64,000 nt of DNA from Apostichopus japonicus (lineage: Eukaryota > Echinodermata > Holothuroidea > Aspidochirotida > Stichopodidae). Below are positions 1,327 through 46,056 of this stretch, piece by piece (within the stretch, counting starts at the first letter, position 1; every line of letters starts with the position of its first letter). The stretch lies in contig NC_092564.1 of NCBI RefSeq assembly GCF_037975245.1, forward strand, positions 19,480,484-19,544,483, written 5' to 3'. The translations under genes and the position numbers were made by a program. A model generated the notes under the pieces. That model saw nothing but the letters and a program-made list of their open reading frames with translations, was not told the DNA's origin and made no database searches.

Positions 1327-1539
1327 CTCCTTGTGCAGACACTGGTGTAATGAATGAGATAACAGGAGAGAATGGACCCAGGGAAACACCAGCGAAGAAG
1401 AATGCCTGAATCCTGAAGGATGCTGTGATGTTGGTGGTCAATTTAGGGACTGTAGCTGCCATAACTGCTCCCTCCACTGGCAGATTCTGCCAATCCAACT
1501 CGCTAGGTTCAGCTACTGTACTGAATTGCACGTTGTAAC
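1327..1539 (-). CDS. Exon 14: second half of FN3 domain 10
   Basis: Acceptor TTTTCAG at 1540-1541; best donor GTATAT at 1326. It is 213 nt, phase 1 to 1, encoding GYNVQFSTVAEPSELDWQNL and then an F-G strand segment ending GPFSPVISFITPVS. This corresponds to GYIIYYSTDV...DWV of neogenin FN3-6. The 3' boundary is less sure because the frame stays open further to 1238. Confidence 0.83.
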
Positions 1540-4500
1540 CTGAAAACGATCAATAAAAAGTCAATACTTCAAATGATCCTTCAAGTTCACGCTGAAAACC
1601 TTTTTAAATTTAAAGAAGTAACCATAAAGCCAGCAGGCTTAGTGATTCCTTGCCTTATAAGTTTATATTGTATATATGGAATCACCTATTTGATAGAGCA
1701 GCTGAGGAAAAATGTGTCCTGAAGTCAAGTACCAGAACATCATACCAGATAATTTAATCATTGCAAAAGGTATTACCCTTCTGAATGTTGATGACAGATA
1801 ACAGTCATTGGAAAGAGTGGAATACCCTTTCAGCCACTTAAAAGAGAGAAGGTAAAATCCTATGACAGTTAGTTAGATCATAGAAATAATTGAGTTTGCC
1901 AAGCTTACAAGGTTTCCAGACTTTGACCTCTGTTGAGCTTCAGTGACCTTCCTTCAGCATCATATTTGGGCAAGTATTTGGTCGGTATCTATCACTTAAT
2001 GTACTGGTTGTAATAACAAGCACTAACAAGGACAACTGTTATTGGTTAAGGTCAAGTGTTGTGTGTCACATTAAATCCCTTGAGGTCTTCAATATTGAGA
2101 ATTCATAGCAGTTTAAGACATTGTGCAGTATTTCTAATGAAATTTAGATACAAATAACATTTTGAACATCATCTTAAACCTGTACCAATTACGTATGGTG
2201 GGCATATGGATGTATATCAAGACAGTGAGAGTAATGAAAGATTACCCTGACATGGTGGTGTAAACTTTCAGGAATTAAACATTAGCTTCTTAAAAATGCA
2301 ATCCTTCCCAACTTCATAATAACAATATTAATTAAGATCTCACTAAGTATCTGCTGTTCTCTACAACATGTCCTTGCACAAAATGTCACTCTGAAACCAA
2401 AAGCTTATTACTGACCACATCCCTAACTAAGAAAGGTTTCCAGGGATTGAATTCTGCTAGCTTTAAACACCCATTGACTTGAAGCAAATTATCCAGCTAC
2501 AGTGCTTTTAAGGCATTAACGCTTTCCCCCGTGCTGACCTCAAATGACCTTTGAATTTTGCAAAGAATTACTTGGCTCTTGTACTACATTATAGGGAAAG
2601 TCATATACTAATATGACATCTCATGAAACTGCATATCTCATGATGCCATTTTTTAAATTTCCAGAGAGTAACCTCTGCTGAACCCAAATGATCGGTACCC
2701 TCCAACGAAGCTATAGCAATACATAACAGCTACCTGGAAATTTTCATAGTGTTCAAGTTTGACACCTGGTGACCTTAAATGAACTCTGACCTAGATTAAA
2801 ATGTGTGCAAACTATACAATACACAAGACTATCATACCTTTCACATTCTGGTTCTGGAGATATAGCACTTTGGATATATTCACATATTGACACCAAATGA
2901 CCTTTGACCTCCACCACAAACAATAGGGTTTGCTAAACTAAGTACAGGAAATCCACATGCCCAAAAAAAAAAGAACTGCACCGGCGACCTTTGGAACAAA
3001 TTATATGACATAAACCCTCTTATATTTGCCCTATGAGTGGTGATCTCTGACCTAACAGAGTGTAATTTCAATGAATCAAGAGCTAACCTGAGACCTCTTC
3101 TGTTCGCTCTAGAGGAGGAAGCCAGTTCAAGGTAGCATGGATGTAATTTGGAAAATCGAGCATCAGCTGGACAACGGTTAAAAGACGGGGTGCTTGACCG
3201 TCAGCTGAAACAAGAAAAAAAACATGGAGAAGATACCAATGTGACCACTTTCAGTACATAGCTTGAAGTCTTTAGATGAAGGAAAATTGTATACAGTAAC
3301 ATACCCTATTCAAGATATTTAGACATATTCACACACAAGCCAATCACTTTTTCAATTCCTTTTGCCTTCAGCAAGCTAGGAATTGAAAAAACTCCTTTGT
3401 TTGCATCTCAAGGACACAACTTGTTTTCCTCCCTCATCAACTTCTCACTTTCATCCCTCACACCATTTTTCCTCCAATAAACACAACTCCTCCCTCATCA
3501 CCTCTTCCCACCCAATTCTCCCCTCTGCATTCCTATCCACACACCAAACTCCATCCTCATCACCTCCTCCTACACCATCCCCCATCTGTTTTTTTTTCCT
3601 CCAGACAAACAACTACTCCCTCATCACCTCCTCCGACAACCTCCCCCATCTCTGTTTTCTCCCTCACCACCTCCTCCTGCACCTTCCCCCAGCTCTGTCT
3701 TCTTCCTCCATACCCAAACTTGGACCAGACTAATACATACTCTCTGACAGAGTCGTGTTTCTGACAGCAACGCTGTAGCCTGAGGTGACACCCTCCACGA
3801 TCGTCTGGACCGAGAATTCGTACTCCGTATCTGGGATGAGATCACCCACGCTGTGCTCAAACTCCCGAGTGTTTGCAAACAAGTAGTTTGAACTAGCAGG
3901 GTTACAAGAAATGAAAACTTCTCTCATTAGGATTGCCAAAACATCCATTTCCAAGAGTTCCAACGTGAATGGCAATACACTATTATATTACTTTATAGTT
4001 TATTGTTATTTGATGTATTGAAAACACACAATCCATTGCTAGAGGCCTACAAATCATACAAGGATAGATGATAAATTCTAAATTAACATTTGTTGGATAT
4101 GAGCAAAACCCCTGGAGCACTTGAATTCTGATCAACCAAGCTGTGACATTTAATTCTACCAAAACTCTGCACATTTGGCATCACATGGGACGCAGGAATG
4201 CTGGTGTATATACATGCTTCCCAGGATCATAATCACACCCTGTGTTTAATATATAGGGTCACAATTACCAACATTTCTTTCACTGGCATCTATGAACTCA
4301 CAACAACAATTTCCATAGTTACAGGGGTTTTGTACTTCTGTCAGGATCATGCGAATAACAAATAATTAAAAGGACAGTATTACAAGATTAAAACAAATTA
4401 TTAAATCAAAAAGTAGTGAAGAGAAGCGGCCTAATGTTCACAGTTATACTGCTTGATAATTAGAGAAAGAGCAGATAAAGGTTTAATAAAAAAAAAGGAA

Positions 4501-7500: not shown

Positions 7501-10500
7501 TTTTAGGATGCAATATTTTTAGGCTGTAATATTTTTTAAGCTGTAATAATTTTTATGCGATTTTGTAAATTGCTTTGAGATCATTGTTTGATGTAAAGCG
7601 CTATATAAGAATAAATATATAAGTGTGAAGTTTGTAGCGGGGTGGACTACTAAATTTCTATGTGAACCGCAAGCCAAAAGCAAATTGATTTACATTCACA
7701 CAGATATTGGCAGAAGCAATTCACCAGATATGACTGAATGTTGTTGAAGAGCGCATGTTTGATAATTACAATTTGTTTAATGAACAAAACTTGTCAACTA
7801 AGTCAATGTCATTGATATCACCTACAGGATGATAAGAATCACATACAAACATGAAATCTACTCTGTATGTAGCGTGAACATTTTTTCCGAATATATTTTG
7901 TGACAGTTCAAACTTGAAAATGGATGATTCAAAACGGATAAAGCCTACCTGATAAGTCCATCTGATACGGAACCACTGATGGCAAAAGGTAGGTAGGTTT
8001 TTCAATGCATTATTACCCAAAAACGATCATTACGTCTTTCTTAATTCTGGTTAACTGTACAGCAGTTTCATTTGGCAGTGAGAAAATCCAAATGACTCTC
8101 TTTTTTTTTCACAAAGTTGACAGTTTACACTGAATAACGTTCAATTTCCTAACTTTGTTTTCTCATTTAATTAGGCAATCATATTCCATTCTTATAGCTT
8201 TCCAATCCCACACTGAGTTTTCTTTCACGAAATGACCGAAAATGTACGCATAACTTAATGAAAACTTCTCTTCTTTTTCAAATGGGATTCTTTTACTGGT
8301 ATAAAGAAAGTGTCCAGCTGAGTATGATAACTATAAGAAAACAATGATAATCATTTAATTACACTCACTGATTTTAACATTCATTTGGTTTAAAGTTTGT
8401 AGGATGATGTCTTTGGTTTCCATCACCAGCGTTGGTTTTTCGAAAAATATTCGGCGGGTTTGTTAGCTTGTAGGCCGCACACAAGCAGCTGCTTCATTCA
8501 GCATTGATTAGTTTATGACAAGTTTCAATTTACAGCAGACTATGAATGCTATTTAATGGACTTTTGGGGCTAGATTTCTGGGACCAAAATTGAAACCTTT
8601 GTTCTTACTACAGAGCCATCTATAAACCTCATATTGCCCATGCTGCACCCAAAGGAAAGCCACTTATCCCAGCCTTGATCTCAATATATCTTACACATGT
8701 ATTACAAGCATATTAATTTGCATACCAATCCTTTGATGTTTGTTTTTCTTGTCACAAGTAATTCTGTCCTAATTAACCTAATTAGCAAAAGTGTTATAAA
8801 TGTCACATATATATATGAGAAACCAAATTTGGCTTAAAAATTAAAAGATCCACAAACTTACCTCCCCCTTCTACCCCCCCCCTCTCTCTCTACACCCCTA
8901 AAGTGTAAAGCATGCTTACCTTCCTTGTACTGGTCTGTAACGAAGACTATAATAGCGTGAATCAGTCACACCTGTCACAGGTGACACTGTAGGATCCATC
9001 CATACGATTCGAGCAGAGCTGGACGTCAAGATTTCCACTGACAGGACGCGAGGAGGTACAAATCTTGCTGCAAAACAAAAGAAAACCAAAAAAATTGAAC
9101 TTGGTCACCTGCAAATTACCTTTATGACGAGATCTGACATACAGTCAGTCAAACAATCATAGCACGAACAGTGGTTGCCTTGTTCTTCTCGTCGCCAGAT
9201 TCACTCAGGTTTGCTTGAGCAATGGTCGTTCTTAGATCTAAGAAAAGAAAGTTTATTCTTTTGAACGAGCAAAGAATTAATTGGAATAAATTGGGATTTC
9301 TAGCATTGACCTTCAGGAATACAAGCAATGTTTATTTCAGAAAGTGACAGAGTGGGGGAAGTGGAGAAAACGCTGCTTTCAGTGTATATGCATTAAAAAA
9401 AAAAAAATTGTGCAGGATAAAAACAATTTGATACCTCCGAATTACCTGACTAGAAGTGACCTTAAACAAATTGCAACCTATATGTTCCCATTGCAATGTT
9501 ACTTTATAATCCAGCTGAAATCAACAATGTTCATAAACACAAACGTCTGACTCAACTGTTTCAGATCGATAAGAACCGTCCTGGTTTTCGACAGAGCGAT
9601 ACTGTCTGTACTTACACACATAGGTCGTGAACGTAACAGCAGAGGGGGCAGTCGGCAGTTCTCTCCGGATCGGTTCCAATATGGCGTGGAACTCCACGAG
9701 AGGTTCCAAGTTTCGGAACGTGTAGCTATTCTGCCGGTAGTGGAGACGCAGCGAGGTGCTCAGGGAGATGGCGTCTGCGTCTATCTTCAGTAGATACCCC
9801 AGGAGGGTTTCATCTTCCTCGTCTATCGGAGGCTCCCACCTCAGTATCACAGTCTGGCCATGAATTTCCGCCTCAAAGTTCCGGACTCGATATTCGTTTG
9901 CACTGACGTCAATTATGGGAGCTTCCGTGGGAGGTAAAGCATCTGTAAGAAAAGTTTGTAACGAGATGTTATATCAACGTCAATATATCAACGTCAATTT
10001 CGGGAGTTAGAGCATCTGTAACGAAAGTTTATATAAAGAAAAAAACTGAAAAAGGAAACAAACCTTAAAAACAAACCTACAACAGCTTGACTACTGAAAT
10101 GTAGAAAAATTTTCAAGATCTTCCATTCTGAATAGGATTAACAGCTGACCAGGGGAACTGTCTGCAGGAGGGGGGGGGGACAAAATATTACCACTCTAAT
10201 AGAAACCTTAACTGCTCCCTGAATGATAAACATTTTGTGAATATCAATTAAATTGGTGGTATGATAGTATGATCAATAAGCAGTAATTTTTGAGTTATTG
10301 CTCAGGGGGCTTGGTAAAATGAAATTGTTGCTTAAATATGCAAAATATTTTGGACCAGTATTTTATTCCATTATTACTGGGTCACTCTAATCCATATCAG
10401 GGGTAAGGTGTGAAAAATTAGTCCCTCACTCCACAGTCCTGTTAAATCACACTGACATTGACACTGACATATGTAAATATTGGAAGGATGCACATTTTGG

Positions 10501-13500
10501 GTAAAATGACTTGGAAATTCCGTCACATGTAGTGGCTGCAAAGCATTTCTAACAGGGAATAATCCAACCAAAGCTTACAGCTTAAGTACAATTTTTTTTT
10601 TACTTTAAAAAAAAAGGCAATCTTCGCAATCATTTTCCAGGCATACTTATCTGTTATTTCATATTTGCTGTATTGATTTAACCAGAAATCATTGAGAAAT
10701 TCTGCAGTGCTCAAGTACATCCTCATCCGCCATCCATCTCTGTTACATCATATCAAAAAGACTTTCTACTATAAACTAGCCGCCAGCATTTGACCTTTAA
10801 TGTACCAATAGGTACCTCATTATACTTTCCGAGGTAACTCATTTAGCCTCATGATACCTTCAAGATAACATATCCATCCAATGTATACCCTCCTACATAA
10901 CATAGTCAACCAAATTATACCCTCCTATAGAGGTAACATATTCATCCTCATTATACTTTCCGAGGTAACTCATTCAGCCTCATTATACCTTCCTAGGTAG
11001 CATTCAGCCTCCGTTATTATATCTTCCCTTAGAAACACATTCAGCCTCATTATGCTTTCTGAGGAAACATATTCAGTATCATCATCATACCAATTACCAG
11101 GTAACATGTACACTACTTTCCTAGGTAACATACAGGCTGCCTTAGAAGTACTTTACTAGGTATTACAGATAATCAAATTTAACCTGTAGTTATTCTGGAA
11201 CGTGCAGGGCTGCTTGGGCCACCTTCGTTGAAGACTCGCAGTTCCACAGTGTAGCGTGTATCTGGTTGGAGGTTGAAGAAGGTATACGATGTCTCCTGCT
11301 TGCCCAGTGTGACTGGATCATTTCCGACTAAAGTCAGCTCGTAGCTTTGGATCGGCTCGATGGGTTGTTCCCACATGATAGCTATCGTATCTGTCGTTGC
11401 CTCTGCAGACCTTATGATGGGCTTGGGCAGAGGACTCGGGGCTTCTGCAACAATGTTTTTTAGGTATCAAATGATTAGTATCTATATGTAAAGCAAAAGA
11501 AATCTGGGAAAGGCGCATTACACAAGGAAACAGGCCAGGGGGACTTCTGCTTTTAGGGGGTGTCAAATGCTTCTCTAAGGGGACAGGCATGTCCTATCTT
11601 ATAAAATCACAACATTCTTTTGACAATTTCTTTGGGGGGCCAAGACTCCACCCCCGCCCCCGGACTAGTATCAGGTATAATAACAATCCTAATACTTACA
11701 AAGTAAAATCAAGAAATGAATTTTGTTAAAGGAAAAGAGACACACCTATCATTTTCCAAGTAGGTGACATGTAGCTGCCTGACCCATGTCATATAGCCTA
11801 AGGCATATCCTTCATTAGGATCCTTAGTTGTTTAATTGAAACTCCTGGCACTTTTATACACAATTTAAGCAGAGAGTAATTACTGAAGTCATTCAGGGCC
11901 TACTCTTTGGCAATCCAGTGCAAAAATGTGCTGTTTAAAATTTCTATATTTGCATTCTATTATAATTCAACATTAGGTCTACTTTATAGGCTTCACAAAA
12001 AATGTATATTTCATTGTTACTCTGTCAAATCTTTTCAACTTAAATGTGCCTTTTTCCAATCTTTAATGTCTACCACATAGACAAACTACTTCCACTCAAT
12101 GAGTATGAGGCAACAGCGATAGACGTTATACACGCATACAGACGTACGGCACGCACACATTCACACATACAGACGTACGGTACGCACACATTCACATACA
12201 CAGACGTACGGCACGCACACATTCACCCACACGTACGGCACCCACATACAGATCGTACGACACGCACATACAGACCTACGGCATGCACATTCATACATAC
12301 AGACATACGGCATGCACACATTCAAACATACACACGTACGGCACGCACACATTCAAACATACACACGTACGGCACGCACACATTCACGCATACAGACGTA
12401 AGGCACGCACATACAGATGTACGACATGCATATACACACATACAGATGTATGGAACGCACACATTCACACATACAGACATAGGGCACGCACACATTCACA
12501 CATACAGACATACAACACACACATGCAGACATACGGCATGCATATTCACACATACAGACGTACGGCAGGCACATTCAAACACACAGACGTACGGCACGCA
12601 CACATTCACACACACACAGACGTACGGCACGCACATTCACACATACAGACAGATGTACAGCACGTACACACTCACATACAGACGTATGGCACGCACATAG
12701 AGATGTACGGCATGCTCATTCACACATACAGACGTATGGCACGCACACATTCACACATACAGACGCACGGCACACACATTCACATACAGACGTACGGCAC
12801 GCACATTCACACATACAGACGTACTGCACGCACACATTCACACATACAGACGTACGGCACGCACATACAGATGTACGACCCCACATTCACACATACAGAC
12901 GTACCACACGCACACATCCACACATAGAGACATACGGAAGCACACATTCACACATAAAGACGTACGGCAGGCACACATTCACACATACAGACGTACGGCA
13001 CACACACATTCACACATACAGACGTACTGCACGCACATACAGATGTACGGCATGCACATTCACACATACAGACGTACGGCAGGCACATTCACACATACAG
13101 ACGTACGGCACGCACATTCAAACACACACAGACGTACGGCCGCACACATTCACACATACAGACGTACGGCTGGCACATACAGACGTACGGCATGCACATT
13201 CACAAATACAGATGTATAGCACGCACACATTCACACATAAAGACGTACGACACGCACACATTCACACATACAGACGTACAACACACACACATTCATACAT
13301 ACAGACGTACGGCACGCACATTCACACATACAGACGTACGGCACGCACACATTCACACATACAGACGTACGGCACGCACACATTCATACATACAGTCCTA
13401 CCACATACTCTCATTAAGTATCAGTATGTTCACCTGTTGAGAGTCTCTCGGTGGCTGGAGGACTCACCCCTCCCAGGTTGGTGACTGCCAGGGCAATAAA

Positions 13501-16500
13501 GTATTCTGTCGACGGCTCCAAGTTTGTGAAGGTATAGGAGGTCTCCTCTGGGCCGAGGGGTATCGGTGATGATCCATCGATGGATATTTCATAACTGAAG
13601 ACATCCTCTGAAGCCCTGCGCCAGTTGACGGTGATACTGTCCGTTGTCGAAGAGTCCGACTCGATGATAGGGGCCGGAGGGATGTTCAAAGGCTCTGGAG
13701 AAAAAAAGTTAGATATATGCGATATAACATGCCACTTCCTTTTACTGTCGAGTCGAGTCATCACCCGATGAATTGACCCGACTTGAGAAGAGTCAGGTAT
13801 TCAAGTCACTGTATCATCTCTATGATGGGGAGAAGATTTGAAATTTAGTGACTCGTCAGGTCTAGAATTGCACAATTTTTAGCCACCTTGCTATCAAGTT
13901 CTCACTGGAGTTTTCCTGGATGACAACAACTCACATCAGTTATTAACTGTACAGGCTTCTGAGAGCAGCCTAATTATACTCGCTGATAATTAGCAGTAAT
14001 AGGGGCTGTGAAGTCAGGTAAGGAATTCATGCCCAAGCATTTGACTGTCGATTGCTAACCCACTTAACATGTGTTAATTTTCTTGCTGTATCCTGGCAAC
14101 CTCCCCCCCCCCCCCAAGAAAACAGTGCATTTTGTCTACTGTCAAAAGGCAACAAAAACTGCCATGTAGCCAATAAAATAGCCTGAACATCCAGGCCTGC
14201 CAGTGTACTGTAAAGTAATATCCCTGGGTACTCTTCCATAATGGCTATATATATCCAAATTTATCTTCTTGCCCTCAATTTACCTGTGCATTAATTGCCC
14301 ATTTGGATATAAGTCTATAATATGTATGTCAGCTCTGTTCTTGAGCAAGCGAGTAAATAGTATATACAGGAACTTTTTCTCTGGAAGAGCACAAGGCAAA
14401 TGTTAGTTGCAATCGTACTTTCACAAATTTGAAAAAAACAGTTTATCAAAAGTCTATCATATCACAGTTAGAGAATTTTCTAGAGGCCCATGAACACGTG
14501 ACCGTTGTGATAACTTCCTGAGCTTCTCTGAAATGGCATTTAACAAACTATGACCTTGTGGTTCTACAACATATATATATATACAATCCATCTTGTATTT
14601 GCTCTTAAAGGACTATTTTGGTAGTTGAGGTTGAAAGCTTCAAAATTTTAATAACCAAACTAGCAGGAATTTTTCTGTAGCCTTAGGTCAAACACCACAT
14701 CCTCATAATATTTGGTATCATGCAGATATGAGAACTTACAATCGAATCAGACAACAACACCTTTCTGGTTTTGATTATATAAAGAAAACCCTGTTCTAGA
14801 GTGAGATGTAAAAGCAGGTGTAGTTTTAATTTACAATTTAGAATTTTCTAGAGGCCCATGAACACGTGACTGTCGTGATAACTTCCTGAGCTTCTCTGAA
14901 ATGGCATTTAACAAACTATGACCTTGTGGTTCTACAACATATACAAACCATCTTGTATTTGCTCTTAAAGGACTATTTTGGTAGTTGAGGTTGAGAGCTT
15001 CAAAAATTTAATAACCAAACTAGCAGGAATGTTTCTGTAGCCTTAGGTAAAAATCCACATCCTCATAATATTTGGTATCATACAGATATGAGAACTTACA
15101 ATCGAATCAGACAACAACACCTTTCTGGTTTGATAATTTAAAGAAAACCCTGTTCTAGAGTGAGATGTAAAAGCAGGTGTAGTTTTCATTTACAATTTAG
15201 AATTTTCTAGAGGCCCATGAATATGTGACTGTCGTGATAACTTCCTGAGCTTCTCTGAAATGGCATTTAACAAACTATGACCTTGTGGTTCTACAACATA
15301 TACAAACCATCTTGTATTTGCTCTTAAAGGACTATTTTGGTAGTTGAGGTTGAGAGCTTCAAAAATTTAATAACCAAACTAGCGGGAATGTTTCTGTAGC
15401 CTTAGGTCAAACACCACATCCTCATAATATTTAGTATCATACAGATATGAGAACTTACAATCGAATCAGACAACAACACCTTTCTGGTTTTGATTATACA
15501 AAGAAAACCCTGTTCTAGAGTGAGATGTAGAAGCAGGTGTAGTTTTCATTTACAATTTAGAATTTTCTAGAGGCCCATGAACATGTGATAACTTCCTGCT
15601 TGAAACCTCGTTTACAGGAAGCATCTTCACCCATATAGACCAAGGATCACTCTTGGACGACTACCAAATTACTAATAGCGATACCATAAACAACAGACTT
15701 ATAGAAAAAGTAAAACTGTTCGGACCTTCTCATCCTATGAATCACTCTCTGCCAAACAACCCGCAAAGAGACGGCCTGGCCTAGAGGAAAGACGTCTCCC
15801 GAATAAAAGTTGCGTGTTGTCAAACAAACTGACCGCAAATAGAGGGAAATGGCTGACACAACCACATCCTCAAGTGACTGGTATAGAAATCCAACAATTT
15901 GAAGGGAAGTGGTTGTGCTAACTGGCTGTAAAGTTTTGTTGGTAATGCTGTTAAATGCAAATGTCAACAAGAGTAATAACTTCCTACATAAATTAATGCT
16001 GGCCAATCAATGTTCACAGTAGGCAGAAATATGAAGATACTTTTGGCTAAAACGACACCAAAAAGAACTCACTCTGTCTGGTACAACAATATGTAAATTA
16101 TTAAAACTGCACAAAGCTTGCAATTATTAACATCACTTCGCGTCAAAATGGAGCAGAACAATTTACGGCAAACTATTGAAATATATCATGAAACATATGT
16201 ATGAATGCCAACCAATTAATGTTCACAGTAGGCAGAAATATGAAGATACTTTCGGCTAAAATGACACCAAAAAGATTTAACTCACTCTGTTTGGTACAAC
16301 TATACGTAAATTATTAAAACTGCACAAAGCTTGCAAAAATTTCAATCACTTCCCATCAAAATTGAGCCGAAGAATTTACGGCAAACTATTGAAATGTATC
16401 CACAGTTTGATGCATTTTATTGGCCTACCTGTGTATATTCTTGAGGTTGCAGCCTCACTGGATCCACCAGGACTGAGTGACCTCACTTCAATGGTGTATT

Positions 16501-19500
16501 CTGTGTTTGGGTCCAAGTTCGTGAAGGTGTGTGAATTTTCGAGAACCCCCAGGGCCTGCCTATCGATGCCGACCAGCGTAATTTCGAATCGGATGACGTT
16601 TGGATCGACTGACTGCCATTCCACGAAGATGCTGTCAGATGTGGCTTGGAGGTCTGTGATGGTGGGGGATTGTGGTGGTCCCAAAGGATCTGTTCAGCAA
16701 GAGAAAATAACGACATATAGTTACTTCTTCTCATAATCAACTGCTAACGATAGATCCAAGTAAAAATGGACATTATTAGCTAACAATCGATGAATTATTC
16801 GGAAAATGATAGACAACGATAGACCCGACAAAGATATACTCAAATCGGATTGAAGGAGACTACTTTATTATTTTAAATTCAGGTCAGGACTTGACCCTTC
16901 AGGGAAGGACGACATGGGCCCGACAGATCAAGTGACCGAGAATTAAATTACATTTTCCATTTTCCAAACTTCTCCAATTTTAGGTCAGTCTGGGGTCGGG
17001 GTGACCAGGGCATACAGAGGTTGCAATTCAAATTAACCTGCATCTATATAAACCCTCCCAGTTCAATTCTCAAGCCGATGTCCATATATCATACACGTCT
17101 TAGTTCTATCAAACCTTGTGTGTACTTGAAGCAAAACATAAATCTTAAGGCAGACAATGATTTTGACAAAGAATTCATTTTACATATCCGGGCCAAGTTT
17201 GAATTTCTCTAGATTGTTTCAATAATTCTCCTGTTCACCGATCTCCCTCCGACATATTCTTTCCTGACAGAAAGTAGAAAATCCCTACTGAGCTTTTTAA
17301 CCCAACTGATGATGGTCTCCCCACCCCCCTCCAACTGCCCCTCCACCTCCACCAATTTAAACCCACCAATGAAACCATTTCATTTGAAAATATGACAGCC
17401 ATTTCAAACTTCATGAAGGTGTTCTTACTTACCAGTGGCAACAGACTGTTCACTAGGGGTACTACTGCCAACTTCGTTGACAGCCTTAATTCTCAGTACA
17501 TACTCTGTATCTGCAGCCAAGTCAGAGAATGTGAAGCTTGTTACATCTCCTCCGGCTGTCTCTGTGCCGAGAGGATCCAGAGTTATCTCATAACCGGTCA
17601 CTTCTTCGGTGGGAGCTGTCCATCTCACAGTGATGGAATCTTCTGTTGACTCCACCGAATCGATCACAGGAGGTGAGGGTGTCAGTAGCTCCTCTGGAAA
17701 GTGAAATCATGAAGACGAAACTATTCAAGGAAAGGCACAACATTCATGCAGTGACTAGAATACTGTCAACTTCGATAAAAGAGCTACTGTGACCTCCGTA
17801 TACGGCTTTAAATTACCGTAAGATCAAACTCGTAGAGGAAAACCAATGCCCCTCAATATATATTTTCTGTAGGCTTATGTGGACTTCTTTTATCTGTTAA
17901 TTGGTATCAAATATAACGCGTACGGCCAAACCGTGGTTGGGCCATTAAAATAAAAATATAAAAATTAAAATAAAAACTTGGTGGTACATTAGGTCTACAA
18001 AACTAAAGACATATAAAGAGAAGTTTAGCTCGTTGAGCATAATCACTCCTTACGAGCAAAAGAGAAAGTGCTGTTTATCAAAACAAAGCCCAAATACTTT
18101 AAAAGGAGACATCCCATCCCAGAAAAAGGAAATATGTACGGAAAGAAGTAGACCAAAGACAAAAGTCATCCCTGTTTTATTGGACCTATAGAAAAACAGA
18201 GGACTTCAATCTTTTAGGATTTTCCATGACGGCTGAGCCATGACTCACAAGAACCCCCACCCCATCACCCAACCCCTACCCATCAGAATAGATGCTCAGA
18301 ATGCATGAAAGCTACCGTGGACTATGGAACATGACATTAATCAATAAATTAACATAACAGCGGTATCCTTCCCCAGACATTGAAAACTGCTAACAAATTT
18401 TAGGCTGACATAAATAATGTCTTTTTTGGTGACCCACTTTTGGGTCATTTGGCCCCCATAGTTTGGACCGTCAAAGTACTACATCTCATCCCCTACATTT
18501 CAAATCAAGGACGCTCACAGAATCCTCTGGCTTTTTACCTGTCGTGACCTTGTCGATGGCAGCTTCCCCAGGTCCATTCTCGTTCACAGCTCTGACTGAG
18601 ACCAGATACAGAGTTCCTGGCGTCAGATCTTCAAAGACGTAGTAGTTTTCGTCCCAGTTGATCTCGAGTGTGTCTTCCTCCAGGTCGTTGATGCCGATGC
18701 CAACTATGAAAGACCTTATGTCATCACCGGCCGGAGCCCAGGATGCCTCGATACTGTACACGGACGGTACGGTGGTGAACGACTCCGGAGGGTTTGGTCG
18801 TTGCTGCTCTGTTTAAATAATAACATATCGACGAACCTGAAGGAAATACGTCTACCTTTCATCACACACTAACAGCATCATCATCAATACGACTGTTCAA
18901 AAGACCAGGTTAAACCTCATGACATACGATCAACTCATGTCGATGACTACCAGCTTATTTCCCTTCAGCTGTTAACCCAGATCTGACAAAACCCTGACAT
19001 TGGGTAATTTGCACACAGTAATCTGGGCTGAATTTTTCAATAACCAGCTAACTACACAGCAGATTTTAGAAATTTAGAACTATTTCAATAGAATCTGAGC
19101 AATTCATCGTAAGTAATGCAGGTATGAACTGATTCTGATGGGGGCAATGGAATATAGCAACTTCACAGTGATATAAAACAAAATTAAAAAGTGACAAACT
19201 TTAAAGCAATTCATTTTTTTTTTTTAAATCAACTGACTATCTGGAAAGCAGTGCAGTAAATAATCTACAGTTACCTATATATGAATTCAAGAGTGCCACC
19301 TGACTAGGACCCACTGCGTTGACCGCACGGATTGCCAGAACGTAGTTAGTACCCGGCTCAAGATCCCTGAAGGTGTGGGTATTTACAGAGGGACCCAACT
19401 CTACCGTGGTTTCATCCGGCGAGTCCCTCCCGATGCCCAGGATGTAACCGGTAAAGTCGTCCCCCTCTGGTTGTACCCACCTGGCGAAGATACTGTCTAT

Positions 19501-22500
19501 ACCAGGCAGAGCGTCAAAGAATTGTGGCACCCCTGGTACTGTTGGCTCCTCCACCGCTACAAAACACAAAGAGCATCGTAATACTTAATACTAGTCATTC
19601 AGAAGTTGGCAGCTCACATGAAACATATCATACTCTTGTAATTATAAGTTTTACTTGAAAACCTTCAGCAATATTAGGAATTTCTAAAGGTGACTTCAAT
19701 ATCCACTTGGTGAAGTGTAGGTGCTAGATAGGCACATGATGAACAAGACTTCCAAACCCCTAAAGACAAAAAAACTTTTTTTTTTATGGGAACTTAACAG
19801 AGTGCATACCTCTGCGTGTGAGTATGTGTGTGTGTGCACTTGGTTTGTATTCTGACTGAGGACATGAATGAAGTAACTCCAAGTCCTCATGCAGAATCAT
19901 TTGAAAAGACTCACCACGTCGTCAGAAAAAGTCCATTGTTAAGTGATACTGATAAGGTTAGGTTATGTGGAATTTAACAAAGGGAAAAACAATGGGGTCC
20001 TCAATCTGAATGTAAAACACATCTGTGTGTCTCTGTGTGTCTCATAATCTGCACCCAAGTTTGCATTAAGTTGCATTTCTGCAGCAACTTTGACAAGTGT
20101 AATTAGATTTGAAGTGTATGAATGGGGGGAGAACAGCATTCTCGAAACTTCCGCCAAACTTGGATATTGAAGTTAGGACACTTTACAATACTACCCATGG
20201 ATGCAGTTCAGGCGAAGTCAAGGGACCAGACAAAATCACACCAAGCACATGCAATGAAGTGAGGCATCCAAGTCGTATGACTGCGCCACATCCAGCTCAC
20301 TTGCTGCATCACTAATTTACTTACCTGTCGATAGTGTCGATACCTCGAGTTCATCGCTGCCTCTTCCAACTCCGTCCTGAGTCTTAGCAAAGACAGAAAA
20401 GATGTACGCGGTACCCTCGGCAAGATCTACGACACAAGCAAACCAAATCAGCAATTATATGAGAAATTACTTGAAAGATCCTGACCTGTCAAAAGGCAAT
20501 CACCTGGCTTGAAATTGATCACAACGACTTATGTCTGCCATGTGTCCTCAATGACATTGTTCTCTGTCCATAATGGGAGTGATCTACTAGACCAAAGGCT
20601 TCCTGACACAAAACATCCTTTCAGAACTACAGTATACTGGCAATACTTACCTTAAACTCAACAATATGTGTGAAAGTTCTGTATAAATAAATGTTGTGGG
20701 AAAAAAAAGGAATTTATGAAATGAGATGAGATACAATCGACTTAAATTTCCAAACGCAGGATCGGTGAAATTCTCAGAAATTACATAAAGTGCATAAAGA
20801 CAGTTGCAAACGTCGACATTAGTCAAATGATGAACAACTGCTTGAGTTTAAGTATATATGTCAACTAGTGACTTGAAGGGGCCTACAGCACAGGTGGGAC
20901 AAGTTTGACACACAGTATGTGCATGCTTGCCAAAACTTTTCAGGTTTGAAAACAATATTACTAACGCTACCCACTAAACCTTATATCCCAACAGTGATTT
21001 TATCCAACGGAAAAGCTCTTCTTCAGAAAATAAATTTCACAGATTTGCAGAAAATGATGAAAACAACAGATGCAGTATATACTTTGTGAAGTTGGCACAA
21101 AGGGCCTACCTGTGACAGGATAATTCAACATACTGTAGCACACTGACAGTGCACAAATAGAATTTTCAGTTTCCCACATAACATATCATTGAAAATCTGC
21201 ACTTTAGTAAAACTGCCACTCATGAATTTTTTGCCACTGCTCACTTCATCACCTTTCAAGATGATAAGTCTGGAACGTTAGCCTGTGTGCCTTAGTGTCT
21301 CCCCTTCCTTGCTCCAGAGTCACCGTGGCCCGCAAGATTAACTTATAGTGTCCCCCTGCATTGCCGCAGTGTCAACGTGGCCATCAAGATTAACTTAGTG
21401 TCACCCCTGCCTTGCCCCAGAGTCACCATGGCTCGCAAGATATAGTGTCTCCCCTGCCATGTCCCAGAGTCACCTTGGCCCTCATGATTAACTAATAGTG
21501 TCCCCCCTGCCTTGTCCCATGGTCACCGTGGCCAGCAAGATTAACTTAGTGTCCCCCCTGCCTTGCCCCACGGTCACCGTGGCCTGCAAGATTAACTAAT
21601 AGTGTCCCCCTGCCTTGCCGCAATGTCAACGTGGCCCGCAACATTAACTAATAGTGTCCCCCCCTGCCTTGTCCCACGGTCACCGTGGCCAGCCTTGCCC
21701 TAGACATGCACCAGCAGATATGGAAAGATGGTGGCAGGTTGTTACTTTGTGGGAAGTTTTCTTAGGTTGCTGCCTACTGTGAATTGAATAACAAGTCACA
21801 TACCTGCTACTGTGTAAGTTGTTTGGGTCTTCCTTAAAGTTAATTTCTTCTCCTTCCTGTCAGACGCCTCCCTGTAATTCAGTCGATAGCCTTTCAGCTT
21901 TTCAGCACCCACCAGAGGAGGGTCATTCCAAGAGAGTGTAATGCTGTTGGTGGTAACATCAACAAGTTGAAAGTTTTCAGGAGCTGAAGCTGAAATGAGA
22001 TATTAATGAAAACAATTTTTAAGTGAAAGTCGAGAGGAAAACGCACCGTAAACTAAAGGGCCCCAATATGGACGCCTATACTACATATAGATACTGGACA
22101 CCCTGCTTCCCAAACGTTTTCTTTGGCCAAGCCTTCTTGTGAACTTTACCTTTGATTAGCCATGACTCACTAAATCAGCAAATATGTGCTCCTGGTGATT
22201 AAATAATAAATTAAACTGCACATTAAATTAAGTTAAAATAAAATAAATTAGGTTAGTATATATTAACACTAAGTACATAAACATGCCAGACCTGCAAATG
22301 GGCGGCCATGTTTGTGACGGAATGCATTACATTTGATTTGTAATTCACTGTTAACCATTAAACAACTGCGATGCAACCTTTCAAGATCTCTATTTCAAAA
22401 CTGCTCTCTGAATCATTCATGCAGCACTAAAATATAGTTTTCAAATGTAAATTCCAGTGTAATGTACATGATACATGTGAAGATTAGAATTGTTAGAATA

Positions 22501-31500: not shown

Positions 31501-33571
31501 AAGTTAAATAATTCCCTTTATATGCTGTACGTTCAGTTTCAACTCTTGCATAGTTGACACCTTTAATTAGCTATACAGGCAGGTAATCATTTAGGGTTCA
31601 TAGCAGTTTTGAAGTTGCTGGATTTTTGTCTCCTAAAAAGTATTATGGTTTGGATCTGGAGTAATAACCTTGTACACATCCTTGCAGTAGCAATATATAG
31701 CAAATGCCTACTTTGCATAGCATCTTGCTATGCAATATGGGATCAATATATTCCTGGCAGGACACATCTTTAAGTAGTTTTCCCTGAAATTTTGTCTTCC
31801 AAATTATGATACTTTTGGCATTATTTGTCAAGTCTGCCCAGCCTTTAACCAACCATTAAAAGTTTACCCTGCTCTGGACGTATGGTGAAAATCTCAGTCC
31901 ACAAATTTGATGTTTCTATTTTTGCTTCTACTTTATTTTACAAGTCCTAGTGTGATTTGGGTTCATTGAATCTAAAAGAATACATTTTATGTAACTAGCA
32001 TAAAAGGCAAAACGAATGCAACAAATCCAGTCTTTAAATAACGACCATAATGATACAATTCAGTCAATAAGAAAACATTATGGGAAGTTATTGGAACTAA
32101 GAATCTCTTCAAAGAAATGGCTTCCCAATTCACACTTTACACAAATTGATCATTTGAGGTTGATAGACTTCCTATATAGTTTGCTGCTACCACACAATGA
32201 GTCAATGACACAGTAACCAGATAAATCTTGTTTCACAGTTCACCGATTTTGAATTCATTCAAGCAACTGCTGAATTTGCTCCTTGGTGGATTTTCTCTGA
32301 AAAGTAACAAGCTTTCTTGTGTGAGCTTTCTTGTGAAATGATAACTAAGGAGTAATCAAGGTTTATATTGTTTGTATCAAGAAAGGGAGGGAGGGAAAGA
32401 AAGGGAGGGGAGGGAGAGGGGAATTGGAAGGGAAGGGGAGGTTGAGGGAGAGGAGAGGGTGAGTGAGGGGGGGAATGTTGCCATTCTTGTATGCTTGGAC
32501 ATGTAGCCCAAAAATGTAATAATGCAAAAATATATTATTTAACTTGGATAGCTTTTTAGACAAAAGATAAATTAGGGCAAAACAAGAACCTGATAGACAT
32601 ATACAAAAAACCTAACTACAACTCATCCTCACCCAATCCTAGGGTTACTACATTACATTGGTTAAAAAGATTTTAGTCCAATTGAAAACCTTTAGAAATC
32701 GGTGCAATTTATTCTCATTGCAAAAATGGAACGATCCTGATTAACCAGGACTTGTAACACACCAAATCCCCCTTCCCTTCCCCCACACTATACCTATATC
32801 CACTAGGAAAACAAATGATTGCATGGTTATGCCTATAAAAGTTGATTTATTAGCAAGAGATCAAACATTACAAGATGAGAAAAATATGTTTAAAATATTG
32901 TAAAATTATCTGTGCACATGACTTGACAATGATCATAAATCAAACAGGCACATATGTTACTTAATGTTTCTGCAAAGTTATTGCCTGAAGGGGAAGTTCT
33001 ATTCTACTGCTTGTAGGCTAGCATAGTCTTGATTCTAGTCTTGGCAAAGATCTGTGGTCTGATTTGAAAGATATAAGCTTTAAAAGTTCTTAGAATAGGA
33101 AGTGACAAGTTCAGCTAGACCAATAGGTTAAAGGAATAGGTTAAAGAAAATTTTGCAATTACTAAATATTTGACCTAACTCGATGTAGAGCGAAGTTTGG
33201 ACTACAGCTCTCCATAATCATAAATCTAGACATAGCCTAACAGTAACAATTAGCAGCCTTATTGTTTTTACTGAAGTGAAAGCCGACAAGTTATAGCCTA
33301 TCTCAGTTACTGCGGCACTAAAATTAACATGAGACAAGTGTACCCAATGGCTAATGATAATTTCTTCCCCAAACTCGTTCATCTCAAACGCATGCAAATT
33401 TGACTAAATAGTTGGGTATATCAGTTAATATATCACCGTGACAAATTCGTAGAACAAATGAAGACAAGTATTATTTATCTTACTGAGCCTACCTTTTCTG
33501 CCTAACACGGGTACGATGGCCGCAACGAGAACCACTGCCAGGACACTGAGAGAACAAATACAGTTGGTCAT
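1327..33571 (-). CDS. Neogenin/DCC-like FN3-repeat protein (partial gene, 3' end off the left edge)
   Basis: Fourteen exons with consistent phases (79, 186, 102, 282, 270, 261, 261, 261, 261, 327, 148, 152, 117 and 213 nt) give about 973 codons in the window. A hydrophobic signal peptide is followed by ten FN3 domains. Domain 1 carries GYRLNYREAS, like GYKIRYRKAS of neogenin FN3-3. Domains 2-8 carry GIG and YTF-x-(N/D)L-x-P patterns of neogenin FN3-4. Domain 9 has VTDSRYYSLRYRP, like ITDSRYYTVRWK of FN3-5. Domain 10 matches FN3-6. In vertebrates FN3-4 to FN3-6 of DCC and neogenin bind netrin and RGM, and the proteins act as guidance or dependence receptors at the cell surface. No Ig-domain exon was recognised. 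Any transmembrane segment and cytoplasmic tail would lie left of position 1. The family call is fairly sure; the domain-to-domain correspondence was judged by eye. Confidence 0.82.
1540..3087 (-). other. Intron between the two exons of FN3 domain 10
   Basis: AT-rich unique sequence with no coding potential, repeat or hairpin of note. Confidence 0.7.
3088..3204 (-). CDS. Exon 13: first half of FN3 domain 10 (neogenin FN3-6-like)
   Basis: 117 nt, phase 1 to 1 (acceptor GTTTCAG, donor GTTAGC). It encodes APRLLTVVQLMLDFPNYIHA and TLNWLPPLE, matching the A-C strands of FN3-6 with the NWxPP core. Confidence 0.87.
3415..3722. repeat. CT-rich degenerate tandem repeat (CTCCCTCATCACCTCCTCC-like)
   Basis: Repeated pyrimidine-rich units containing CCCTCATCACCTCC run up to 18 bp from the donor of FN3 exon 12. 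On the transcribed strand this is a purine-rich GGAGGAGG tract. The long ORFs over it are composition artefacts. Confidence 0.8.
3741..3892 (-). CDS. Exon 12: second half of FN3 domain 9
   Basis: 152 nt, phase 2 to 1 (acceptor CTGCTAG, donor GTATGT). It encodes SNYLFANTREFEHSVGDLIP followed by DTEYEFSVQTIVEGVTSGYS. It corresponds to the NANATTLSYLVTGLKPNTLY region of neogenin FN3-5. A 5-kb intron separates it from exon 11. Confidence 0.9.
5021..6383. mobile_element. hAT-like element with 14-bp TIRs and perfect 8-bp TSD
   Basis: The left end CAGGGTGGGAATTT and right end AAATTCCCACCCTG are perfect inverted repeats, flanked on both sides by TTTACAAG (5013-5020 and 6384-6391). This is diagnostic of hAT-superfamily insertion. 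The 1363-bp interior has GGTAAGCAC repeats near the left end and a long hairpin at 6021-6060 but no transposase frame, so it is non-autonomous. It lies in the 5-kb intron within FN3 domain 9. Confidence 0.88.
6021..6060. repeat. Near-perfect 18-bp-stem hairpin inside the hAT-like element
   Basis: ATGAACTACGCA and TGCGTAGTTCAT pair, then after one mismatch TTGCC pairs with GGCAA across a 3-nt loop. It is a subterminal palindrome about 320 bp from the right end of the element. Confidence 0.8.
6392..6809. mobile_element. Remnant of a second hAT-like element (right end only)
   Basis: The segment ends GGTTGCCCACCCCTG, a widespread hAT terminal-repeat type, and contains a GCGGGCC-rich inner stretch. 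The matching left end was not found; the 5021-6383 element may have inserted into it. Confidence 0.4.
7500..7616 (+). mobile_element. LINE (L2-like) or SINE 3' tail relic
   Basis: The sequence contains TGTAAAGCGCTATATAAGAA followed by TAAATATATA, preceded by a T-rich stretch. AAAGCGCTATATAA is the typical 3' end of L2-clade retrotransposons and the SINEs that share it. No upstream coding part remains. Confidence 0.45.
8920..9067 (-). CDS. Exon 11: first half of FN3 domain 9 (neogenin FN3-5-like)
   Basis: 148 nt, phase 1 to 2 (acceptor TTTGCAG, donor GTAAGC). It encodes RFVPPRVLSVEILTSSSARI, the core WMDP, then VTDSRYYSLRYRPVQG. The TDSRYY-x-(L/V)R motif is a hallmark of DCC/neogenin FN3-5. 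Confidence 0.9.
9205..9237 (-). CDS. Candidate 33-nt microexon in the FN3-8/FN3-9 linker
   Basis: A strong acceptor (CTTTCTTTTCTTAG) is followed by 33 nt, open in the phase-1 frame (LRTTIAQANL), and a possible GTGAAT donor. Including or skipping it keeps the frame. Vertebrate DCC and neogenin have an alternatively spliced linker at this very junction (FN3-4 to FN3-5). Its use here is inferred from signals only. Confidence 0.3.
9616..9942 (-). CDS. Exon 10: FN3 domain 8 (FN3-4-like copy 7)
   Basis: 109 codons, phase 1 to 1 (acceptor TCTTACAG, donor GTAAGT). It has VILRWEPPIDEEDETLLGYL and LRLHYRQNSYTFRNLEP. That last stretch is the closest match in the window to the KQRYYTIENLDP strand of vertebrate neogenin FN3-4, so this may be the ancestral-position copy. 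It is 22 residues longer than the 261-nt copies. Confidence 0.9.
9985..10015 (-). pseudogene. Truncated duplicate of the start of FN3 exon 10
   Basis: About 70 bp upstream of the true exon on the minus strand, a copy of its acceptor (GTTACAG) and first codons recurs, reading ALTPEIDV against ALPPTEAPIIDV in the exon, and soon meets a stop. It is a small local duplication that leaves a decoy acceptor. Confidence 0.5.
10790..11165. repeat. Degenerate tandem repeat (about 35 bp, GAGGTAACTCATTCAGCCTC-like)
   Basis: Units with GGTAACATATTCA and CCTCATTATACTTTCC recur about ten times with many changes, ending just before FN3 exon 9. Confidence 0.65.
11184..11444 (-). CDS. Exon 9: FN3 domain 7 (FN3-4-like copy 6)
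   Basis: 87 codons, phase 1 to 1 (acceptor GTTGCAG; donor GTTAAA is weak). It has AIMWEQPIEPIQSYELTLVG and YTFFNLQPDTRYTVELRVFN. The reading frame and exon length match its neighbours exactly. Confidence 0.92.
12130..13397. repeat. 31-bp minisatellite, about 1.27 kb
   Basis: Units of the type CACACATTCACACATACAG plus ACGTACGGCACG repeat about 40 times with small deletions. The frame runs open as His-Thr-rich peptides on both strands because the unit is stop-poor; these are not genes. It sits in the intron between FN3 domains 6 and 7. Confidence 0.93.
13434..13694 (-). CDS. Exon 8: FN3 domain 6 (FN3-4-like copy 5)
   Basis: 87 codons, phase 1 to 1 (acceptor TTCTCCAG, donor GTGAAC). It has ITVNWRRASEDVFSYEISID and YTFTNLEPSTEYFIALAVTN. 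The intron 3' of it begins next to the 31-bp minisatellite. Confidence 0.93.
14473..15598. repeat. 360-bp tandem satellite, three full copies and a fragment
   Basis: Copies start with GAATTTTCTAGAGGCCCATG at 14473, 14841, 15200 and 15560 (periods 368, 359, 360). The first copy is longer because of an (AT) run. Copies differ at only a few positions. It lies in the intron between FN3 domains 5 and 6. No coding potential. Confidence 0.92.
15998..16402. repeat. 209-bp tandem duplication beside FN3 exon 7
   Basis: The segment with TGTTCACAGTAGGCAGAAAT and ATTTACGGCAAACTATTGAA occurs twice, at a spacing of 209 bp. The second copy ends 26 bp from the donor side of exon 7. Confidence 0.85.
16429..16689 (-). 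CDS. Exon 7: FN3 domain 5 (FN3-4-like copy 4)
   Basis: 87 codons, phase 1 to 1 (acceptor GAACAG, donor GTAGGC). It has IFVEWQSVDPNVIRFEITL and HTFTNLDPNTEYTIEVRSLS. A 209-bp tandem duplication lies in the intron directly downstream of its donor. Confidence 0.93.
17433..17693 (-). CDS. Exon 6: FN3 domain 4 (FN3-4-like copy 3)
   Basis: 87 codons, phase 1 to 1 (acceptor TTTCCAG, donor GTAAGT). It has ITVRWTAPTEEVTGYEITLD and FTFSDLAADTEYVLRIKAVN. It is the first of four consecutive exons of exactly 261 nt. Confidence 0.93.
18539..18808 (-). CDS. Exon 5: FN3 domain 3 (FN3-4-like copy 2)
   Basis: 90 codons, phase 1 to 1 (acceptor AAACAG, donor GTAAAA). It has ASWAPAGDD around the core Trp, FIVGIGINDLEE and YYVFEDLTPGTLYLVSVRAVN. 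With domain 2 it is the copy that best keeps the Gly-Ile-Gly strand of neogenin FN3-4. Confidence 0.92.
19275..19556 (-). CDS. Exon 4: FN3 domain 2 (FN3-4-like copy 1)
   Basis: A complete 94-residue FN3 domain on one exon, phase 1 to 1 (acceptor TTTGTAG, donor GTAACT). It has the core Trp in IFARWVQPEGDD, the GYILGIGRDSPDE segment and THTFRDLEPGTNYVLAIRAVN. The GYxxGIG stretch resembles GYAIGYG of vertebrate neogenin FN3-4. Confidence 0.92.
20325..20426 (-). CDS. Exon 3: second half of FN3 domain 1
   Basis: 102 nt, phase 1 to 1. It encodes DLAEGTAYIFSVFAKTQDG and a polar tail, the F and G strands of the FN3 domain (the L-x-x-G-T-x-Y pattern). The domain is split between two exons, unlike the seven single-exon domains that follow. 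Confidence 0.88.
21293..21700. repeat. About 57-bp minisatellite, seven units
   Basis: Units resemble AGTGTCCCCCCTGCCTTGCC followed by CAGAGTCACCGTGGCC and GCAAGATTAACTAAT. It is GC-rich against an AT-rich intron and lies between the two exons of FN3 domain 1. Confidence 0.88.
21804..21989 (-). CDS. Exon 2: first half of FN3 domain 1 (neogenin FN3-3-like)
   Basis: The acceptor TTTCAG and donor GTATGTG flank 186 nt, phase 1 to 1. It encodes the A-E strands of an FN3 domain, with the core ITLSWNDPP and GYRLNYREAS. It has no internal ATG near its start, so it is best recognised by translating the splice-bounded segment. Confidence 0.88.
23948..23975. repeat. Short perfect hairpin
   Basis: CCATGTTTATC and GATAAACATGG pair perfectly around ACAA. 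It is isolated in the first intron of the FN3 gene, and no terminal repeats or target duplication were seen around it. Confidence 0.6.
27973..29756. repeat. A-B-A'-B' tandem duplication split by the foldback element
   Basis: Segment A (27973-28129) recurs as A' (29456-29611), both starting AATTTTGCATGTTTCATACA. Segment B (29291-29460) recurs as B' (29612-29756), both containing ACTGACATTCAGAAAACAGC. The foldback element sits between A and B of the first copy, so the duplication came first. Confidence 0.85.
28168..29272. mobile_element. Foldback (long-TIR) DNA transposon, 365-bp arms
   Basis: Arms 28168-28532 and 28908-29272 are inverted copies of equal length with only about four visible differences. 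They start GCTTACCTGTCTCCTCACAA. A 375-bp spacer has no transposase. Flanking 9-mers GAGTGACGA and GAGGAGCGA agree at six positions, a possible decayed 9-bp duplication. Long TIRs with 9-bp duplications suggest a MULE or foldback element, but the superfamily is unresolved. Confidence 0.88.
29903..29935. repeat. Perfect 15-bp-stem hairpin
   Basis: TTTGTATGTACTGTA and TACAGTACATACAAA pair around GTG. The stem is perfect but short, and there is no flanking pairing of the kind seen in a microRNA precursor. Confidence 0.75.
32380..32472. repeat. G/A-rich purine tract
   Basis: An almost uninterrupted GGGAGGGAGGGAAAG-type run of about 90 bp with several G-triplets, which could form a G-quadruplex or triplex. 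Confidence 0.75.
33493..33571 (-). CDS. Exon 1: start codon and signal peptide
   Basis: The ATG at 33571-33569 has an A at -3. It opens 26 codons beginning MTNCICSLS, with a long Val/Ala/Leu core ending PVLGRK, a typical secretory signal peptide. The exon ends in phase 1 at a GTAGGC donor. Joining it to the next recognisable exon (21989) preserves frame and makes a short mature N-terminus before FN3-1. That join crosses an 11.5-kb intron and is inferred. Confidence 0.75.
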
Positions 33572-45888: not shown

Positions 45889-46056
45889 ATGTTCTCTCAA
45901 AATTCGGTTGCAGCAGTCATTTTGTTGGCGGCGGCTGCGGTAGCATTCGAAACCGACGTATATGTGGATGTTGAACAAGGTAGGCTGTTAGGTCAGACCG
46001 TTGATTTCATCGAAAATGAATTCATCAACGTCTCAATGAAAATAGACATCTTTAAG
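45889..46056 (+). CDS. Cholinesterase exon 1: signal peptide and N-terminal strands
   Basis: The ATG has an A-rich context (GCAAAATG). 56 codons, donor GTGAGA, phase 0. The sequence begins [19 protein letters not shown], a clear signal peptide, then [13 protein letters not shown], the usual esterase opening (V-x-x-x-x-G-x-L-x-G). A possible N-glycosylation site is NVS at 47-49. Confidence 0.9.

Follow-up and report, generated by a model that had tools for sequence, protein, structure and literature searches.

The neogenin/DCC receptor carries four N-terminal Ig domains, six FN3 domains, a transmembrane segment and a Neogenin_C tail with the motifs P1-P3. The 64,000-nucleotide stretch of the Apostichopus japonicus genome analysed here (hereafter the window; C4:19480484-19544483 in the coordinates of our genome searches, G000:C4) holds a minus-strand gene, running from 33571 down to 1327, with ten FN3 domains against six in that receptor. 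An earlier note on this DNA had proposed a neogenin/DCC-family ectodomain that lacks Ig domains and carries FN3-4 in seven copies, and that could serve as a receptor or decoy.

Of the 14 exons in the window, one codes for a signal peptide and 13 for FN3 domains. Spliced together they read through 973 codons in a single frame; every intron has GT/AG borders, and the start phases are 0, then 1 ten times, then 2, 1 and 1. Pfam matches fn3 in ten stretches of the joined protein (E 2.6e-105). The same 13 FN3 exons were recovered by a local FN3 profile at E <= 0.006 among 3,121 ORFs of both strands (next best 0.8), partly by construction, because the profile was built with the window domains included. 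The motifs GYRLNYREAS, VTDSRYYSLRYRP, GIG and YRQNSYTFRNLEP, which the earlier note had quoted, are all present in the translation, and its account of a signal peptide and ten FN3 domains on 13 phase-compatible exons is borne out by the introns, the phases and the Pfam matches. Confidence in the window exons is high. Two weak donors, GTTAAA and GTTAGC (Table 1), could speak for a decaying pseudogene or an assembly join. Against this, the model extended by two exons left of the window counts 16 exons and 1,051 continuous codons with zero stops and zero frame errors, and we regard decay or misassembly as exceedingly improbable. The modelled product up to exon 16 is acidic (112.5 kDa, pI 4.3). 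Two repeats sit in the introns between the FN4-type exons: a 31-base minisatellite with about 43 copies (window 12131-13395) and a 359-base unit repeated in tandem about three times (window 14472-15588).

Table 1 Exons of the gene in order of transcription. Positions of exons 1 to 14 are those of the window; exons 15 and 16 lie left of it and are given in chromosome coordinates.
Exon	Position	Strand	Content
1	33493..33571	-	Signal peptide MTNCICSLSVLAVVLVAAIVPVLGRK; phase 0 to 1
2	21804..21989	-	FN3 domain 1 (FN3-3 type), first half; intron position as in the FN3-3 domain of the C3 gene
3	20325..20426	-	FN3 domain 1, second half
4	19275..19556	-	FN3 domain 2, FN4 type, GYILGIG; best five PDB matches of the model are FN4-containing DCC/neogenin chains
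5	18539..18808	-	FN3 domain 3, FN4 type, SFIVGIG
6	17433..17693	-	FN3 domain 4, diverged, FN4-type clade
7	16429..16689	-	FN3 domain 5, diverged, FN4-type clade
8	13434..13694	-	FN3 domain 6, diverged, FN4-type clade
9	11184..11444	-	FN3 domain 7, diverged, FN4-type clade; weak donor GTTAAA; AlphaFold2 pLDDT 94.3
10	9616..9942	-	FN3 domain 8, FN4-type clade, 11-residue insert, long branch
11	8920..9067	-	FN3 domain 9 (FN5 type), first half; end phase 2
12	3741..3892	-	FN3 domain 9 (FN5 type), second half
13	3088..3204	-	FN3 domain 10 (FN6 type), first half; weak donor GTTAGC
14	1327..1539	-	FN3 domain 10 (FN6 type), second half; end phase 1; gene continues left of the window
15	C4:19478538-19478382	-	Thyroglobulin type-1, first part; start phase 1; ends AT/GTAAGT (slash, exon end)
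16	C4:19475183-19475107	-	Thyroglobulin type-1, second part, CYCVDELG; ends C/GTAAGT, phase 1

The identity of the FN3 domains was examined by scoring the ten window domains one to one against 20 reference domains and by two domain trees. The first tree has 31 rows (TNR3 and TTN78 left out); the second has 33 and includes domains of a further FN3 gene on C3 (TNR3, TTN78, domain 10, canonical FN5 and FN6, and one partial FN4-type copy of the C3 gene left out). Domain 9 groups with FN5 of DCC, neogenin and the canonical sea-cucumber neogenin at 99/99* in the 31-row tree and scores highest with neogenin FN5 (43.7 bits); its intron has phase 2, as in the canonical FN5, at positions within two residues of each other. 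By these similarities domain 9 can be assigned to FN5 with high confidence. For domain 10 the best reference is neogenin FN6 (35.4 bits), and its intron interrupts, in phase 1, the G codon that precedes Y, identical to that of canonical neogenin FN6; the grouping with FN6 is neither demonstrated nor rejected by the 31-row tree (p-AU 0.40), in which domains 8 and 10 stand on long branches. Taken jointly, domains 9-10 match human neogenin FN5-FN6 best (3p4l, E 2e-22) among 177,635 distinct PDB sequences.

Domains 2-8 group with FN4 at 83/92, not starred, in the 31-row tree, and one to one a clear match to FN4 is found for domains 2 and 3 only. Neogenin FN4 is the top reference for both (40.8 and 42.0 bits), and the GIG strand of FN4 is retained in each. 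For domain 2, an AlphaFold2 model (pLDDT 94.9) aligns with its five best PDB matches at TM 0.88-0.90 by query length, the output not giving the aligned part of the longer chains. Neogenin FN4 also ranks first for domain 8, though weakly (18.0 bits). Domains 4-7 have tenascin or fibronectin domains as top references and score far higher among themselves. Structure comparison of the domain 7 model against the PDB does not single out FN4, with DCC FN4 chains only at ranks 6, 12 and 27. We therefore grade the FN4 assignment as good for domains 2-3, which probably are FN4 domains, and as moderate for domains 4-8, which may be of FN4 type. The closest relatives of domain 7 genome-wide are domains 6, 5 and 4 (48, 43 and 37%), and those of domain 2 are, in order, domain 3, canonical FN4, a C3 domain and domain 4. 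Since these nearest relatives are mostly domains of the gene itself, most of the FN4-type repeats arose inside the window gene or its ancestor.

Domain 1 has titin as its top reference, followed by neogenin FN3-3. Neither tree settles its placement with FN3-3 (p-AU 0.20 in 31 rows, 0.32 in 33 rows), and the name FN3-3 is given mainly because its intron agrees in place and phase with that of the FN3-3-type domain of the C3 gene, which itself groups with DCC/neogenin FN3-3 at 95/95* in the 33-row tree. The tree, the scores and the FN6 intron together place an FN4-FN5-FN6 block in that order in the gene. The proposed arrangement of one FN3-3, seven FN4, one FN5 and one FN6 domain is thus largely supported, FN6 by best score and intron, and domain 1 by intron position; at the level of the domain tree it holds for domain 9 and, moderately, for domains 2-8.

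We then asked what lies on the 5' side, where neogenin would carry its Ig domains. Exon 1 is the sole minus-strand candidate in 21990-64000 to pass a signal-peptide filter made for this analysis (start, hydrophobic core, cleavage and phase-1 donor). One plus-strand candidate also passed; it lies at 45889, where an esterase gene is inferred to begin: a carboxylesterase-family gene with PF00135 in two exons occupies window 45889-53017 on the plus strand, head-to-head with the window gene, and probably bounds its 5' side. Pfam found no Ig exon in the 42 kb upstream (nine frame stretches, minus strand 21990-64000), the only match being DUF5479 at E 0.75; an FN3-bearing frame used as positive control gave fn3 at 9.8e-23. 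With a DCC Ig1-4 profile, too, the window yielded no Ig exon (best E 0.71), and FN1-FN2 were not found in the window gene. Both searches agree with the earlier statement that the gene has no Ig exons. Right of the window, Ig exons occur on the plus strand at C4:19570488, 19599536 and 19607648, and beyond them comes an FN3 exon at C4:19655393; they probably belong to another gene.

The animal's canonical neogenin is found elsewhere. A genome search with human neogenin FN5-6 leads to a minus-strand locus on C4 at 14.76 Mb, with 42% identity over 62 FN6 residues (E 1.6e-7). Of the 93 matches only one ranks higher, and it belongs to a different FN3 gene. Its DNA reads FN4, a split FN5 and a split FN6. 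DCC Ig4 matches there at C4:14775958-14776230 (44%, E 1.2e-12), the only Ig match at the locus among 109 scored of 277 candidates, and Neogenin_C (PF06583) has its one genome-wide match at C4:14736277-14736363, 24 kb past the canonical FN6. The split FN5/FN6 exons of the window gene are absent among the 93 matches. A genome search with domains 9-10 returned their own four exons and two weak matches elsewhere (E 0.04 and 0.13), without reaching the canonical neogenin. Because these searches failed in both directions, the two genes must have diverged strongly; no close copy of the window gene was found. Since the canonical gene lies 4.7 Mb away on the same chromosome, the window gene is judged, as far as sequence comparison reaches, to be an extra, strongly diverged neogenin paralogue separate from it. 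The window gene is of neogenin descent, and the animal's neogenin is the canonical gene with Ig4 and Neogenin_C.

This second locus also speaks strongly against the view that the window holds the ordinary neogenin with its Ig exons overlooked. Single-half Ig exons can evade profile scans and exon 1 is a prediction. Nevertheless, the 42 kb upstream are free of Ig matches, the esterase gene apparently starts head-to-head at 45889, a canonical gene exists elsewhere, and a thyroglobulin domain, which is not known as a part of neogenin, is present. We rejected this candidate as largely refuted, and its chances are very slim.

That thyroglobulin domain lies on the 3' side. Exon 15 alone, in its raw frame, gives a thyroglobulin type-1 half domain of 18.5 bits, below the cut-off of 20.6, whereas spliced exons 15-16 match PF00086 at 38.9 bits, and exon 15 starts in phase 1, the phase that exon 14 requires. 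PDB matches of the spliced exons are thyroglobulin, saxiphilin, invariant chain, EpCAM, TROP2 and IGFBPs. The link of this domain to the window gene, drawn from phase and profile, is of moderate confidence. A read-through of exon 14 as the last exon was ruled out, as phase-matched thyroglobulin exons come next. At least one further exon probably follows, because exon 16 ends in the consensus donor GTAAGT in phase 1. The next same-strand gene, a PF03407 nucleotide-sugar transferase frame (C4:19441501-19440654, minus, E 2.8e-34), lies about 34 kb beyond exon 16 with zero N in between; within the 264 kb taken for this comparison, all 2,500 N are at C4:19415984-19418483.

This space bears on whether the protein is a membrane receptor with an unrecognised transmembrane exon, and possibly a short tail, after exon 16. 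The donor of exon 16 leaves room for more exons, a short transmembrane exon could escape detection in the 34 kb, and a hydrophobic phase-1 exon candidate occurs at C4:19467360. That candidate is, however, low-complexity sequence, and the other hydropathy hits were judged low-complexity or chance, so that a hydropathy scan of 40 kb and splice-aware scans yielded no convincing transmembrane segment on the 3' side. In the 40 kb left of the window, Pfam places only the transferase above cut-off across 12 minus-strand frames; the matches below it are the thyroglobulin half domain, MgrB, SURF6, Mago_nashi, New_glue, CFAP143 and Orf78. No Neogenin_C tail was found in the window gene, PF06583 matching the canonical gene only. 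No convincing P1-P3 motif was found in 121 kb on the 3' side, where the best scores are 21-28 against self-scores of 65-125 and the hits were judged low-complexity or chance. Five motif versions were scored on both strands; for three of them the minus strand lies slightly above the plus-strand control (21 against 18, 28 against 19 and 28 against 27, a margin of 1 to 9 points), and the best P1-like hit falls within the reading frame of the transferase. Searching with a DCC tail by phmmer returned nothing at E <= 5. A membrane receptor thus appears unlikely. The earlier note had suggested looking left of the window for a transmembrane segment and P1-P3; that flank gave no convincing candidate for either and thyroglobulin-1 exons instead, which weakens its receptor reading, and an extra, apparently secreted neogenin-derived mosaic is the better label.

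Comparison with known systems brings out the composition of this mosaic. With neogenin/DCC (frazzled, UNC-40) it shares the FN4-FN5-FN6 order, the FN5 and FN6 sequence and the FN4 features of domains 2-3, and with the canonical neogenin of the same animal the intron positions given above. In contrast to these receptors, it has about seven FN4-type domains instead of one, almost no FN4-FN5 linker and an added thyroglobulin-1 domain, and no Ig, FN1-FN2, Neogenin_C or convincing transmembrane segment was found in it. A partial parallel is the C3 gene (G000:C3:30246491-30261368, plus strand), in which a split FN3-3-type domain is followed by several single-exon FN4-type domains (four and one partial, with an SYG/YYG strand). 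Where the window gene has its FN5-FN6-thyroglobulin-1 end, the C3 gene has seven EGF-like exons, of which Pfam confirms one and six were named by eye. The 33-row tree rejects neither a group of window domains 2-8 alone (p-AU 0.57) nor one of the C3 domains alone (0.55), and is thus compatible with one multiplication of FN4 or two. The two genes suggest that FN4 has been multiplied and recombined in more than one gene of this genome.

Tenascins and fibronectin are long secreted FN3 rods. The window gene also codes for a long FN3 rod; its model differs from theirs in having no EGF, fibrinogen or FN1/2 modules and in an FN5-FN6 pair that matches neogenin. Testicans and nidogen are thyroglobulin type-1 proteins, and like such proteins the window gene has one thyroglobulin-1 domain with PYC, QC and CYCVD motifs, here joined to neogenin-type FN3 domains. 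An alternative reading is a secreted matrix or adhesion protein of neogenin descent, used in the manner of tenascin or fibronectin, that has lost netrin/RGM binding. Such a use would fit the tenascin or fibronectin top scores of domains 4-7, the long branches of domains 8 and 10, and the matrix-like make-up of the C3 gene, which joins FN3-3-type and FN4-type domains to EGF exons. The GIG strand and the best FN4 scores of domains 2 and 3, the precedence of FN4 chains for the domain 2 model and the preserved FN4/5/6 order speak against it, and we hold it to be possible but short of an even chance.

According to PMC8063088, the LN domain of vertebrate netrin binds FN4 with high affinity, while its LE3 domain makes a lower-affinity contact with FN5 on an adjacent receptor, leading to receptor clustering, and RGM binds FN5-FN6. 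PMC5563286 states that DCC needs about 19 linker residues between FN4 and FN5 for netrin cell binding, and names R884, Y895, M921, W931 and R865 as ladder residues of DCC FN5. In the window gene domain 8 runs directly into FN5, with the linker almost absent. By an alignment in which residue numbers on DCC were assigned by hand and R865 could not be placed, domain 9 keeps R884 and Y895, while M921 is changed to Q and W931 to Y. The missing linker and the two changed residues add to the case for a matrix protein. The earlier claim that the ligand-binding end was kept accordingly stands as a statement about sequence, qualified by these losses. Domains 2 and 3 would be the likeliest netrin-binding units, and our confidence that the protein binds netrin is low.

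Beyond a signal peptide, ten FN3 domains and a thyroglobulin-1 domain, the nature of the protein is what we infer. Our best reading, with a probability of roughly 0.4, is that the gene may encode a mosaic of neogenin origin that is secreted, carries a thyroglobulin-1 module and possibly acts as a decoy for netrin. Because no transmembrane segment was found, the protein would be secreted, as an acidic FN3 rod. The FN4-type and FN5/FN6 surfaces that it retains might let one rod bind netrin at several sites without signalling, and it might either compete with the canonical neogenin for ligand or pre-concentrate ligand for it; the thyroglobulin-1 domain could serve as a protease-resistant or protease-inhibiting matrix module. 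A more specific version, in which a neogenin gene copy lost its Ig head and signalling tail, multiplied FN4 about seven-fold and gained thyroglobulin-1 to become a soluble multivalent trap for netrin (or RGM), and in which this trap opposes or assists the canonical receptor encoded on the same chromosome, is rather doubtful.

Alternative splicing and shedding are familiar sources of soluble decoys of guidance receptors. A gene devoted to this role and assembled from neogenin's ligand-binding end, with FN4 multiplied and a new C-terminal module, would, if true, be an unusual way of tuning netrin signalling, and nature's own test of which FN4 surfaces count. The sea cucumber is a regeneration model, and as the canonical neogenin is in the same genome, both genes can be tested side by side. 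The second gene, with its FN4-type and EGF domains, hints that in this lineage FN4 now moves between genes as a module. Among echinoderms, PMC7555569 reports DCC homologues in a sea-urchin database and PMC10396339 a neogenin-like marker in sea-star neurons. In one open-access literature collection, neogenin, thyroglobulin type-1 and fibronectin type III were not found together, and no description of such a gene was met among the items listed there on neogenin Ig loss or soluble or secreted neogenin/DCC, one of which (PMC10838306) uses the term 'soluble neogenin' twice. Elsewhere in the genome, FN3 exons form a very large array at C23:15068877-15124715, where many are spaced about 510 bases apart and have near-equal scores.
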